This document shows, in pieces, positions 43,748-48,033 of a DNA stretch of 64,000 bases. The stretch lies in assembly GCA_000754445.1 (NCBI GenBank), contig JNSD01000002.1:62001-126000 (forward strand), given 5' to 3'. Position numbers and translations under genes: made by a program. Under the pieces are notes generated by a model. The model had not been told where the DNA came from and ran no database searches. It saw nothing but the letters and a program-made list of their open reading frames with translations. Position 1 is the first letter of the stretch, and the number at the start of each line of letters is the position of its first letter. The stretch is from an actinobacterium acMicro-4 (GTDB lineage: Bacteria; Actinomycetota; Actinomycetes; Actinomycetales; Microbacteriaceae).

Positions 43748-44397
43748 CCTCTCATCAGCTTCTGGTGGTGTTGGATGTCGATTCGACGCTGACGCAGGAT
43801 GAAGGTATTGACCTGCTCGCTGCGCAGGTTTCCAAGGACATTGCCCGCGAGGTTTCTGCCATCACAGAGTCAGCCATGCGCGGTGAACTCGACTTCGAAG
43901 AGAGTTTGCGCAGACGCGTTGCCGCTCTAGAGGGGACCCCTGAAACCTCTGTCAACGAAGCCTCTAAAAAAGTGCGCCTGAGTGAGGGCGCCCGGGTCTT
44001 GGTTGATACTCTCCACGCTGAGGGCCATCTCGTGGGAGCGATTTCCGGTGGCTTCCACAGCATGATTGATTCGATAGCTGAGGACTTGCGTTTGGATTTT
44101 CACCGTGCCAACCGGTTGGAAGTCAACGGGGGCATTCTTACGGGCAAAGTTGTGGGTCCCTTGATTGATGCCCGCGCGAAGGTGACCGCACTTCAGGAGT
44201 GGGCGCGGAGCGCCGGAATCCGGAGGGAGCGGACTGTTGCGGTGGGCGACGGCGGAAACGACGTCGAAATGCTGGCCTGGGCAGGCCTGGGGGTTGCATA
44301 TATGGGCAAGCCCGTCGCTCGCGCCGCGGCCGATGTTGCGCTGGACACGCCTGATCTGAGCAAGGTGCTTCTGTTGTTGGGACTACTGCGCGATTAG
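43744..44397 (+). CDS. serB: phosphoserine phosphatase
   Basis: HAD phosphatase producing L-serine from phosphoserine. Motif I LDVDSTLTQDEG (Asp11, Asp13), motif II Ser in ISGGFHS, Lys in DARAKVTAL, motif IV AVGDGGNDVEML. It lacks the N-terminal ACT domains found in some SerB proteins; 217 aa is the short form. ATG 43744 is chosen; an in-frame GTG at 43729 is possible. The stop TAG interlocks with that of fabG in TTAG. Confidence 0.92.
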   Translation: MTSHQLLVVLDVDSTLTQDEGIDLLAAQVSKDIAREVSAITESAMRGELDFEESLRRRVAALEGTPETSVNEASKKVRLSEGARVLVDTLHAEGHLVGAISGGFHSMIDSIAEDLRLDFHRANRLEVNGGILTGKVVGPLIDARAKVTALQEWARSAGIRRERTVAVGDGGNDVEMLAWAGLGVAYMGKPVARAAADVALDTPDLSKVLLLLGLLRD

Positions 44398-45104
44398 TGT
44401 CCCATCCCCAGTCCACCATCAACCGGGATCACAGCCCCAGAGATATACGCCGCATCATCTGACGCAAGCCAGAGCACCACACCAGCAACCTCGGCGGGAT
44501 CGGCAAACCGGCCAGCAGGAATTGACTTGAGGTAGGCATCCGCCTGTTCGGGTGGGAGCGCTTTGGTCATGTCGGTCGTGATGAAACCGGGGGCGACGAC
44601 ATTTGCGGTGATTCCGCGCCCACCGAGTTCCCGGGTCAACGAACGGGCAAAACCTACGAGAGCTGCTTTTGATGACGAGTAATTGACCTGGCCAGCCGAA
44701 CCAAAGAGACCCACCACGCTTGAGATGAGAATGACGCGGCCATACTTGGCCTTGATCATTGGTGTGATGCAGCGCTTGACGACTCGAAAAACGCCACCGA
44801 GATTGGTCTCAATGACACTGTCGAATTCTTCATCCGACATTCTCATGAGCAGCGTGTCCTTGGTGATTCCCGCGTTGGCGACAAGGACGCTAATCGGGCC
44901 ACAGGCCGCTTCGACTTCGGCAATTGCTCTGTCCAGGCTGGAGCTGTCGGTGACATCGGCTCTCACGGTCATCGAGCCCTCGGGACCGTTACCGGAGCGG
45001 GCAGTCACGGCGACCTGATATCCGTCACTGAGAAAACGCTCCGCTATGGCATAGCCGATGCCACGGTTACCGCCAGTGATGAGGACCGTCCGGGAAGCTG
45101 TCAT
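44394..45104 (-). CDS. fabG: 3-oxoacyl-ACP reductase FabG-type SDR
   Basis: SDR reductase resembling FabG/MabA of fatty acid synthesis (NADPH). ITGGNRGIG cofactor motif, ISSVVGLFGSAGQVNYSSSKAAL with canonical Ser, Tyr-x3-Lys, and VAPGFITTDMT. 236 aa, as for MabA, with C-terminus GLGMGH. No fab operon is near; in mycobacteria fabG1 pairs with inhA, not seen here. Confidence 0.9.
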   Translation of the reverse strand: MTASRTVLITGGNRGIGYAIAERFLSDGYQVAVTARSGNGPEGSMTVRADVTDSSSLDRAIAEVEAACGPISVLVANAGITKDTLLMRMSDEEFDSVIETNLGGVFRVVKRCITPMIKAKYGRVILISSVVGLFGSAGQVNYSSSKAALVGFARSLTRELGGRGITANVVAPGFITTDMTKALPPEQADAYLKSIPAGRFADPAEVAGVVLWLASDDAAYISGAVIPVDGGLGMGH

Positions 45105-45150: not shown

Positions 45151-45420
45151 ATGTCGGCTCCTCACACCGTGACCTCATTGCAGAACGCTCCCGAACGGGA
45201 GCGGCGCGTTCGGATGATCAAATACACCGTTGCGATGGGGATCAGGCTTGCGTGCATAGGGGCGTGTTTTCTCGTCTCTGGGTGGTGGCTCCTCATTCCC
45301 GCCCTCGGAGCCATAGTTCTGCCCTATTTCGCAGTGGTCGTGGCAAATTCAGCCACCAAAGACGGCCAGAAGGCCACGCCCTTGCGTCCCGGCACGGTGA
45401 GCGTCACCAGCCAGCAGTGA
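45151..45420 (+). CDS. DUF3099 family membrane protein
   Basis: 89-aa conserved actinobacterial protein of unknown function. A polar N-terminus with RERRVRMIKYTVAMGIRL is followed by two membrane helices (about 30-48 and 51-68) and a hydrophilic tail. Usually adjacent to SURF1 in related genomes, so perhaps linked to respiration. Its TGA overlaps the next ATG by one base. Confidence 0.82.
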   Translation: MSAPHTVTSLQNAPERERRVRMIKYTVAMGIRLACIGACFLVSGWWLLIPALGAIVLPYFAVVVANSATKDGQKATPLRPGTVSVTSQQ

Positions 45421-45638
45421 TGTTCTCAGAGTTCCTCGCAGGGTCGACCCGGTGTTCGCGCACCTCCTGTCAGGAATCTGCGGCGTGGGAGATTGTGTGG
45501 CGAAATCCCAAGATTCACGGACCTGAGCGGGAAAAAATCTGGCTGTCGTGTCCTGACCATAAAGTCTTTTTTGAGGGCTATCTGGGTCAGCGCGGGTTCC
45601 CTGTTAGGGCTGTAGCGCTCTCCGGAGAGGGCGCATGA
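45420..45638 (+). CDS. small conserved Cys/His protein, function unknown
   Basis: 72 aa with a C-x4-C pair (Cys12, Cys17) and a C-x2-H pair (Cys44, His47), a possible small zinc site, and AAWEIVWRNPKIHGPE between. It is translationally coupled on both sides (TGATG with DUF3099, ATGA with SURF1). It was identified by ATG position and by the four-base couplings; similar small proteins accompany SURF1 in related actinobacteria as I recall. No membrane segment. Confidence 0.72.
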   Translation: MFSEFLAGSTRCSRTSCQESAAWEIVWRNPKIHGPEREKIWLSCPDHKVFFEGYLGQRGFPVRAVALSGEGA

Positions 45639-46438
45639 TTCGGCTACTCTTCACCAGGCGCTGGGTGGGGTATCTGGCGCTGACTGTTGTCTTCGCGCTG
45701 GTCTCGAGTTTCTTCGGGCTGTGGCAATGGGATCGGCGAGGCCAGGCCGTTGCAGCCATCGACGTTCTCGAGTCACACTGGGACAAAGAACCAGCGGAGT
45801 TCATGAATGTCGTGGGGGCTGGCGGGTTCTCCCCGGCGCGGGAGCAGTGGACCCCGGTCGTGGTCAACGGAGAGTATCTGCCGGGTGATCAGATTCTTGT
45901 GAGAACCAGGCCGCGCGGCGGACAGGTGGGCTTCGAAGTGCTTGTCCCCCTGCGCACCGACAGTGGCCTCATAGTGGTGGTTAACCGCGGCTGGATACCC
46001 ACAGGCGAGGCCAGTGACTTCCCGGATGTCGTTCCGGGCGCACCCGGTGGCGAAGTTTCACTGGTGGCGCGAATCAAGCCCGGCGAGCCAACACTTCCCA
46101 GACGAGGAGCACCCGAGGGCCAGCTACCAAGCATTGACCTGGAGGCCATGAAGAGTGTCGTGGGTTACGACCTCGAGACGACGTACTTTCTCCTCCTGGA
46201 CAGCGAGACCCCAGAGTCAGCGGTGGCACCACTGCCGGTACTCCGCCCCGTACTGGATGAGGGCCCCCACCTCAGCTACACCCTGCAATGGTTCGTTTTT
46301 GCCCTGCTGGCCCTCATCGCGTTTTTTGCTTTGCTTCGCGGCGAGGCCAGGCGCGAAGCGGGAATTGAACCTCCGGAGAGAACGAAGAAAAGCGACGCTG
46401 ACGAGGAAGACGCACTGCTCGATCGAGCACGAATTTAG
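45635..46438 (+). CDS. SURF1 family cytochrome oxidase assembly protein
   Basis: Helps insert haem a into cytochrome c oxidase subunit I. Typical layout: membrane helix near the N-terminus (about 9-27), extracytoplasmic domain with FFGLWQWDRRG, YLPGDQILVRTRPRGGQVGFEVL and VNRGWIP, and a C-terminal helix (LSYTLQWFVFALLALIAFFALLR). 267 aa. Fits with ctaA, ctaB and cta genes in the same window. Confidence 0.94.
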   Translation: MIRLLFTRRWVGYLALTVVFALVSSFFGLWQWDRRGQAVAAIDVLESHWDKEPAEFMNVVGAGGFSPAREQWTPVVVNGEYLPGDQILVRTRPRGGQVGFEVLVPLRTDSGLIVVVNRGWIPTGEASDFPDVVPGAPGGEVSLVARIKPGEPTLPRRGAPEGQLPSIDLEAMKSVVGYDLETTYFLLLDSETPESAVAPLPVLRPVLDEGPHLSYTLQWFVFALLALIAFFALLRGEARREAGIEPPERTKKSDADEEDALLDRARI

Positions 46439-48033
46439 GCCAGCGAAATCAAATCTTGATACTCGGCGTTCCAGTGGTCTTCGACACCATCTGGCATGAT
46501 CAGCACCCGCTCTGGATTAAGCGCAACAACCGCGCCATCATCGTGACTCACCAGGACCACCGCGCCCTTGTAGTGCGCTAGCGCGTCAAGGATTTCCTCC
46601 CGAGAGGCGGGATCAAGGTTGTTGGTGGGCTCGTCCAATAGAAGGACGTTTGCCTGGGACACGACAAGTGTTGCCAATGAGAGCCTGGTTTTTTCGCCAC
46701 CCGAGAGAACGCCGGCCGGTTTCAGAACGTCGTCGCCGGTGAAAAGGAACGATCCCAGTACTTTGCGAGCTTCTGTCTCCCCCAGGCTCGGAGATGCTGC
46801 CAGCATGTTCTCGAGGACGGTGCGCTTAATGTCGAGCGTCTCGTGCTCTTGTGCGTAGTAGCCAACTCGAAGGCCGTGGCCCGCCTCAACTTCGCCGGTG
46901 TCGGGGGCATCCACGCCAGCAAGAATTCTGAGAAGAGTCGTCTTGCCGGCACCGTTTAGTCCCAAGATGACGACCTTGGAACCACGGTCGATGGCCAAGT
47001 CAACGGCGGTGAAAATTTCAAGGGACCCGTAACTCTTGGAGAGGTTGTGGGCAAACAGCGGCGTCTTGCCACATGCCGCAGGCTCGGGGAATCGCAATTT
47101 CGCTACCCGATCGACAGCCCGCACGTCATCCAGGCCGGCCAGCATCTTCTCGGCGCGGGCAACCATCTGGTGCGCCGCGGCGGCCTTGCTCGCTTTGGCC
47201 CCAAATCGAGCAGCCTGTTGGTGGAGCGAGCTCGCTTTCTTCTCCGTAATGGAGCGTTCTTTGCGGCGACGTTCCTCGTCCGCCTCGCGCTGGCGCAGAT
47301 AAAGCTTCCAGGACATGTTGTAGATGTCGATGGTGGATCGGTTCGCGTCAAGGTAGAACACGCGGTTTACTGTCTCCTCCACCAGGGCGACGTCGTGGGA
47401 GATTACGATTACTCCCCCTTGGTACTGCGACAGGAACGCCCTCAGCCAGACCACCGAATCGCCATCGAGGTGGTTGGTCGGCTCGTCAAGAACCATAAGA
47501 GGTGCATTCTGAAAGAGAATACGTGCCAGTTCAATCCTGCGGCGTTGACCACCGGAGAGCGTCGCCAAAGTTTGATCGAGCAGGGAGTTCGGAAGGTTCA
47601 AATGGGAGGCGATCGTGGCGGCCTCAGCTTCAGCGTGGTAACCGCCCGCCGCCAAGAATTGGTCATTGAGGCGCCCATATTTCTTCATTGCCGCCTGCGC
47701 GATAGCGTCATCAGAGGAAGCCATGTCGAGGCTGGCCTTCTTCATCGCCGCCATCACTGTGCCAAGTCCGCGCGCATCGAGAATGCGAGTTCGCGCAGTT
47801 GCTTCAGGGTCGCCGGCGCGCGGGTCCTGGGGTAAGTAGCCGACCTCTCCGTTGACGTGAACAAATCCCGCTGTCGGGGCTATTTCACCGGAAATGACTC
47901 GGGTTAGAGTGGTCTTTCCCGCGCCATTACGACCGACGAGCCCGACCTTGTCGCCTTTATCGACACGGAAAGATAGCCCGTCAAGGAGCACACGGGCGCC
48001 GAGCCGAATCTGAAGGTTCTCTACCTGGAGCAT
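46435..48033 (-). CDS. ABC-F family ATP-binding protein (EttA-like)
   Basis: Cytosolic translation factor of the ABC-F class that acts on the ribosome. Two ABC domains, Walker A GRNGAGKTT and GLNGAGKTT, signatures LSGGQRRRIELARI and LSGGEKTRLSLA, Walker B MVLDEPTNHLD and LLLDEPTNNLD; the charged linker (about 240-300) has RQREADEERRRKERS. 532 aa. The DUF59 gene is 43 bases upstream. The subgroup resembles ribosomal factors rather than antibiotic-resistance Msr/Vga types. Confidence 0.92.
   Translation of the reverse strand: MLQVENLQIRLGARVLLDGLSFRVDKGDKVGLVGRNGAGKTTLTRVISGEIAPTAGFVHVNGEVGYLPQDPRAGDPEATARTRILDARGLGTVMAAMKKASLDMASSDDAIAQAAMKKYGRLNDQFLAAGGYHAEAEAATIASHLNLPNSLLDQTLATLSGGQRRRIELARILFQNAPLMVLDEPTNHLDGDSVVWLRAFLSQYQGGVIVISHDVALVEETVNRVFYLDANRSTIDIYNMSWKLYLRQREADEERRRKERSITEKKASSLHQQAARFGAKASKAAAAHQMVARAEKMLAGLDDVRAVDRVAKLRFPEPAACGKTPLFAHNLSKSYGSLEIFTAVDLAIDRGSKVVILGLNGAGKTTLLRILAGVDAPDTGEVEAGHGLRVGYYAQEHETLDIKRTVLENMLAASPSLGETEARKVLGSFLFTGDDVLKPAGVLSGGEKTRLSLATLVVSQANVLLLDEPTNNLDPASREEILDALAHYKGAVVLVSHDDGAVVALNPERVLIMPDGVEDHWNAEYQDLISLA

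Follow-up and report, generated by a model that had tools for sequence, protein, structure and literature searches.

A conserved small Cys/His protein encoded between DUF3099 and SURF1 in Microbacteriaceae is a candidate zinc-finger-like accessory factor

The 72-aa protein encoded between DUF3099 and SURF1 in the window, a stretch of 64,000 nucleotides from an actinobacterial genome, belongs to a widespread and strongly conserved family that is without description in the copies of Pfam, NCBIfam and PHROGs that we used, where the protein finds no match. The literature searched held no description either, in agreement with an earlier note on this DNA that had called the function undescribed. In the reading that we favor, with a probability of roughly 0.55, this is a stand-alone cytosolic zinc-finger-like protein that would offer a docking loop to a partner, would, in the window and near relatives, be dosed together with DUF3099 and SURF1, and would be an accessory factor, not one that oxidase assembly requires.

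Results

A small gene overlaps both DUF3099 and SURF1

The gene lies in a plus-strand cluster opened by DUF3099 and closed by SURF1. The features of the locus are as follows.

44394-45104, minus strand: fabG-like gene, divergent, flanking the cluster; name read from the translation
45151-45420, plus strand: DUF3099 protein, first gene of the cluster, start codon inferred (PF11298, E 9.7e-18)
45420-45638, plus strand: 72-aa protein of a conserved family without a name, C-x4-C ... C-x2-H (ORF, relatives, dN/dS)
45453-45455, plus strand: codon of C12, predicted zinc ligand (invariant in both alignments, A1 and A2; position from the sequence)
45468-45470, plus strand: codon of C17, predicted zinc ligand (invariant in A1 and A2)
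45504-45536, plus strand: codons 29-39, N-P-K-I-H-x3-R-x-K, proposed docking loop (conservation and model; putative role)
45549-45560, plus strand: codons of C44-x2-H47, predicted zinc ligands at the start of a helix (model and alignment)
45635-46438, plus strand: SURF1 cytochrome oxidase biogenesis protein, last gene of the cluster (PF02104, E 2.3e-34; NF050123, E 9.6e-69)
46435-48033, minus strand: ABC-F-like gene, convergent, flanking the cluster; name read from the translation

The open reading frame and its overlaps, as the earlier note had described them, are real and exact, and Pfam confirms both neighbors. The stop codon of DUF3099 (TGA, 45418-45420) overlaps the ATG of the small gene (45420-45422) as TGATG, and the stop codon of the latter (TGA, 45636-45638) overlaps the ATG of SURF1 (45635-45637) as ATGA. 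Both Cys/His pairs, C12-x4-C17 and C44-x2-H47, are found in the translation. A promoter scan gave no promoter-like site and two terminator-like sites, against 1.3 expected. The source genome is 77.75% complete, and many of the genomes compared below are likewise incomplete.

The small protein represents a conserved family

A single scan of genome_contigs returned 18 relatives, including proteins of Microbacterium, Leucobacter, Pontimonas, other Microbacteriaceae, Flexivirga, an Actinomycetaceae bacterium and a Propionibacteriaceae bacterium. Profile searches then found the gene in 132 of the 150 genomes drawn from Microbacteriaceae, the 30 best-scoring loci of which were inspected, and in 24 of 396 genomes drawn from the phylum, all 24 within the class of the window. 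With a broader profile, 50 of 148 genomes drawn from that class carry it (hereafter bearers). The gene was not found in any of the 14 genomes of group f6, which belongs to the same class (phylum draw, profile search).

Ten residues (C12, C17, W27, N29, P30, H33, K39, W41, C44 and H47) are invariant in all 35 members of alignment A2, and the four Cys/His ligands are intact in 54 of 55 loci, the lone exception being a copy on a Citricoccus plasmid that has lost C12 and C44. Since VWRNPKIH served as the seed of the genome_contigs scan, the invariance of that stretch in the 19-row alignment A1 is biased, while A2 and the 55-locus count take in profile-based hits; A2 omits four of the 19 rows of A1 (L007, L008, L009 and L011) and includes 20 of the 24 sequences of a further set. 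The search for homologs and gene neighbors that the earlier note had proposed therefore found its Cys/His residues, and the neighborhood described below, to be conserved. The protein also looks to be under purifying selection, because dN is 0.018 for a dS of 0.28 against its nearest relative (locus L002); against locus L003, dN is 0.15 and dS is saturated.

Searches further afield gave little. Eighteen stretches of viral_contigs fit a pattern and none was confirmed as a phage relative, nor did PHROGs hold one. PDB sequence searches returned no match, or one match each at chance level, and single members gave weak Pfam matches (DUF2695, DUF1289 and others) with a best E of 0.011. A literature search by motif letters brought up nothing relevant, only a cryptography paper. 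The name acetone carboxylase, which we take to be an odd database label sometimes attached to such proteins, was not found together with SURF1 in the literature search.

The model suggests a structural zinc site and a conserved hairpin loop

An AlphaFold model built from the 19-row alignment has a mean pLDDT of 85, with blocks at 91-97 over residues 11 to 60. It comprises strands at 23-27 and 39-43, a helix at 48-57 and a strand at 62-66, with C12-x4-C17 ahead of the hairpin and C44-x2-H47 at the start of the helix. Hairpin-helix, structural zinc sites commonly have Cys/His pairs on either side of a hairpin and at the head of a helix, and four conserved ligands of this kind, as expected of a structural zinc finger, are present here. 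One zinc ion would thus be held by C12, C17, C44 and H47 and would fix the beta hairpin onto the helix that follows; H33, also invariant, could be a ligand as well. Between strands 23-27 and 39-43 lies the conserved and partly basic hairpin loop N-P-(K/R)-(I/L)-H-x3-R-x-K, four of whose residues (N29, P30, H33 and K39) are among the invariant ones, and which may serve as a docking surface for a protein or nucleic acid partner. No membrane helix or export signal was noticed in the 72-aa sequence by eye, no program being used, and the protein is presumably cytosolic.

The same site could in principle exchange zinc or copper, as that of a metal chaperone or sensor would. Four conserved soft ligands, the invariant H33 and plasmid copies lying near CopC are in keeping with such a role, which we nevertheless consider very improbable: in the model the ligand pairs are placed as in structural sites, the protein has no Cys beyond C12, C17 and C44, and no export signal was noticed by eye.

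A common gene order among bearers of the class, with direct coupling to SURF1 in the family and near relatives of the window

SURF1 starts within 30 nt of the small-gene stop in 41 of 67 loci, with the exact 4-nt stop/start overlap in 37 of 67 (L001, L020, L021 and L044 are excluded from this set as duplicates, and further duplicates are possible). Of the 50 class-draw bearers, 39 have DUF3099 immediately before the small gene on the same strand. The nearest SURF1 among the matches listed lies within 0.2 kb in eight of the 50, at 0.2-4 kb in 20, downstream by 4-25 kb in 10, far off in two, on another contig in seven and is not detected in three. For the nine bearers counted as far or on another contig, a re-search of the loci (L079, L105-L111 and L119) showed no SURF1. 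A moaA-like gene, identified by Pfam in one member, is near the small gene in 20 of 30 class loci checked, often convergently oriented and separating the small gene from SURF1. From these distances and the position of moaA, DUF3099, small gene, (moaA), SURF1 emerges as the usual order, with direct coupling to SURF1 as a trait of the family of the window and its near relatives. The translational coupling proposed by the earlier note holds within that circle but is not the rule in the class. The small protein of the window and of its near relatives is probably co-translated with DUF3099 and SURF1, which would match its dose to theirs.

Loci L016, L019, L076, L080, L083, L084, L114 and L118 show the convergent moaA-like gene after the small gene, and before SURF1 where the locus has SURF1. 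A link to the molybdenum cofactor was rejected, with MoaA in one of 14 bearing and two of 15 non-bearing Microbacteriaceae tested; 26 of these 29, for the most part small genomes, gave no match to MoaA.

The small protein might instead act as a partner of DUF3099, binding the cytosolic face of this membrane protein. Its gene follows DUF3099 directly in the 39 bearers mentioned, including ten f5 genomes (large, Streptomyces-like) in which SURF1 is 8-20 kb off among the matches listed, and five Microbacteriaceae loci (L051, L055, L057, L065 and L070) have the pair with no same-strand SURF1 in the 3.2-kb locus. This explanation seems doubtful, though it deserves some weight: 11 of the 50 bearers lack the adjacency, DUF3099 occurs in 139 of the 148 class-draw genomes against 50 for the small gene and so is independent of it, and gene order inherited from a common ancestor would account for the linkage equally well. 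In ten bearers with the gene apart (L102-L111), neither DUF3099 nor SURF1 was found within the surrounding 6.7-10.2 kb; the neighbors are ROK and DUF2203, AlkZ-like, UvrD and an F420H2-dependent reductase, Band 7 and BrkB, Nramp, or MobA and MoaA. Such mixed surroundings are fitting for an autonomous function, as in our preferred reading of a stand-alone accessory protein.

DUF3099 is itself widespread in the class draw, and the literature search found no paper on it, alone or together with SURF1. Nor did the search find papers joining SURF1 with Micrococcales, or moaA with SURF1 and actinobacteria.

The gene is repeatedly absent beside a retained DUF3099-SURF1 pair

Among the 150 family genomes, SURF1 is present in 149; 18 of the 150 lack the small gene, and 17 of those have SURF1. 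Two of the 18 have no DUF3099 detected and were set aside (G460, in which SURF1 is not detected either, and G475). In each of the remaining 16 that were examined, DUF3099 is followed immediately by SURF1, whose domain starts 47-97 nt after the DUF3099 stop, and hmmsearch with filters off found no remnant of the small gene in these loci (best E 0.34). A hidden divergent copy in G465 and G526, where the domain-to-domain gaps are 366-380 nt, was rejected, DUF3099 simply being longer there. On a quick SURF1 tree, in which one row is 12% filled (L093) and three rows are long, presence and absence change six times, and well-supported branches force at least four of these changes. Because relatives outside the family also carry the small gene after DUF3099, the absences in Microbacteriaceae are most simply read as losses. 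COX1 was found in 13 of 15 non-bearing genomes tested, the other two being only 82% and 75% complete. The gene appears to have been lost several times while the DUF3099-SURF1 pair stayed, and is probably no core part of cytochrome oxidase making. Most of the 150 genomes show two SURF1 matches.

A role in oxidase assembly would probably be accessory at most

SURF1 was detected in 47 of 50 bearers vs 70 of 98 non-bearers (Fisher p 0.001, with no correction for kinship or completeness). Of the three bearers without detected SURF1, G550 and G613 have COX1 and G600 has none detected, a weak absence since the COX1 search (PF00115) missed the Corynebacterium glutamicum control and can miss real copies. 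In a passage of PMC9145763, C. glutamicum is described as having an aa3 oxidase, and its bc1-aa3 supercomplex as requiring SURF1.

Two Kocuria rosea plasmids and one Citricoccus plasmid (L073, L074 and L075; NZ_CP126484, NZ_CP127859 and NZ_CP039426), are typed as mobilizable; on them SURF1 occurs together with CopC and, here and there, CcdA, CopD, DUF305 or oxidase assembly proteins, a plasmid-borne copper and oxidase-assembly stretch. Both K. rosea plasmids have a relative of the small protein with SURF1 and near CopC, with CcdA on one and an oxidase assembly protein on the other, and no DUF3099 was found in the 10-kb stretch of either. On one of them the SURF1 frame right after the small gene is cut to 42 aa, and another SURF1, of 328 aa, is encoded some 2.4 kb upstream. 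On the Citricoccus plasmid, a 301-aa SURF1 stands beside the copy that has lost two ligands.

An accessory factor of cytochrome aa3 assembly, which would join SURF1 in delivering haem a or copper and be helpful without being essential, could account for the 4-nt overlap with SURF1, the K. rosea plasmid relatives and the enrichment of SURF1 among bearers. We hold it to be unlikely, though not negligible: the gene is absent from the 16 Microbacteriaceae that keep DUF3099 beside SURF1 and was not found in group f6, COX1 persists in most non-bearers tested, SURF1 went undetected in three bearers (as did COX1 in one of them, within the limits of that search), and the Citricoccus copy without two ligands sits beside a 301-aa SURF1. 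The frequent overlap could also reflect a real oxidase role that has been replaced in some lineages.

The link to oxidase assembly suggested by the earlier note is weakened accordingly: a required role is unlikely and a supporting, non-essential one is possible. Of the zinc or haem/copper site that it had envisaged, the zinc half fits the predicted four-ligand site, while haem or copper handling for the oxidase has lost ground because of the structural-zinc look, the failure to see a membrane helix or export signal by eye, the absences beside DUF3099-SURF1 and the bearers without detected SURF1. The small protein would therefore fit best as an accessory factor, not as a required assembly factor.

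A more specific proposal, which we regard as improbable, is a zinc-finger adaptor, so far in only one actinobacterial class, that links the cytosolic side of DUF3099 to SURF1-dependent oxidase biogenesis and tunes, without enabling, haem a insertion. If true, it would be a cytosolic factor of the SURF1-dependent oxidase pathway without description in the papers that our literature searches found. With genomes that lack the small gene beside an intact DUF3099-SURF1 pair, the question of an oxidase role can be put to a direct test, and the ten invariant residues are targets for mutation.

Comparison with known domains

SURF1 (PF02104), the operon neighbor of the small protein in the window and near relatives, is a different protein, and DUF3099 (PF11298), the upstream neighbor, is a small membrane protein (by eye) without sequence relation to the 72-aa protein. 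With Foldseek, no PDB structure matched the AlphaFold model at E 0.001 or below. Among re-aligned solved folds, phycobilisome linkers and procarboxypeptidase domains reach Z 4-5, seemingly through a common arrangement; they come after PML B-box 1 (PDB 6imq; VIA-align Z 5.7, 2.1 Å over 49 residues), whose score falls in a range that the tool grades as possibly just a common arrangement. The CHORD domain (PF04968), a short Cys/His zinc-binding domain, is likewise small and gave weak matches in two of 19 and two of 35 members, far from significance (best E 0.056 and 0.19) and below the curated cut-off. B-box family profiles gave no Pfam match among 19 members up to E 10 or 35 members up to E 1. 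The B-box is also a small Cys/His domain, and PML B-box 1 aligns to the model over those 49 residues, but B-boxes bind two zinc ions in a cross-brace arrangement, whereas the 72-aa protein has one evident predicted site of four ligands.
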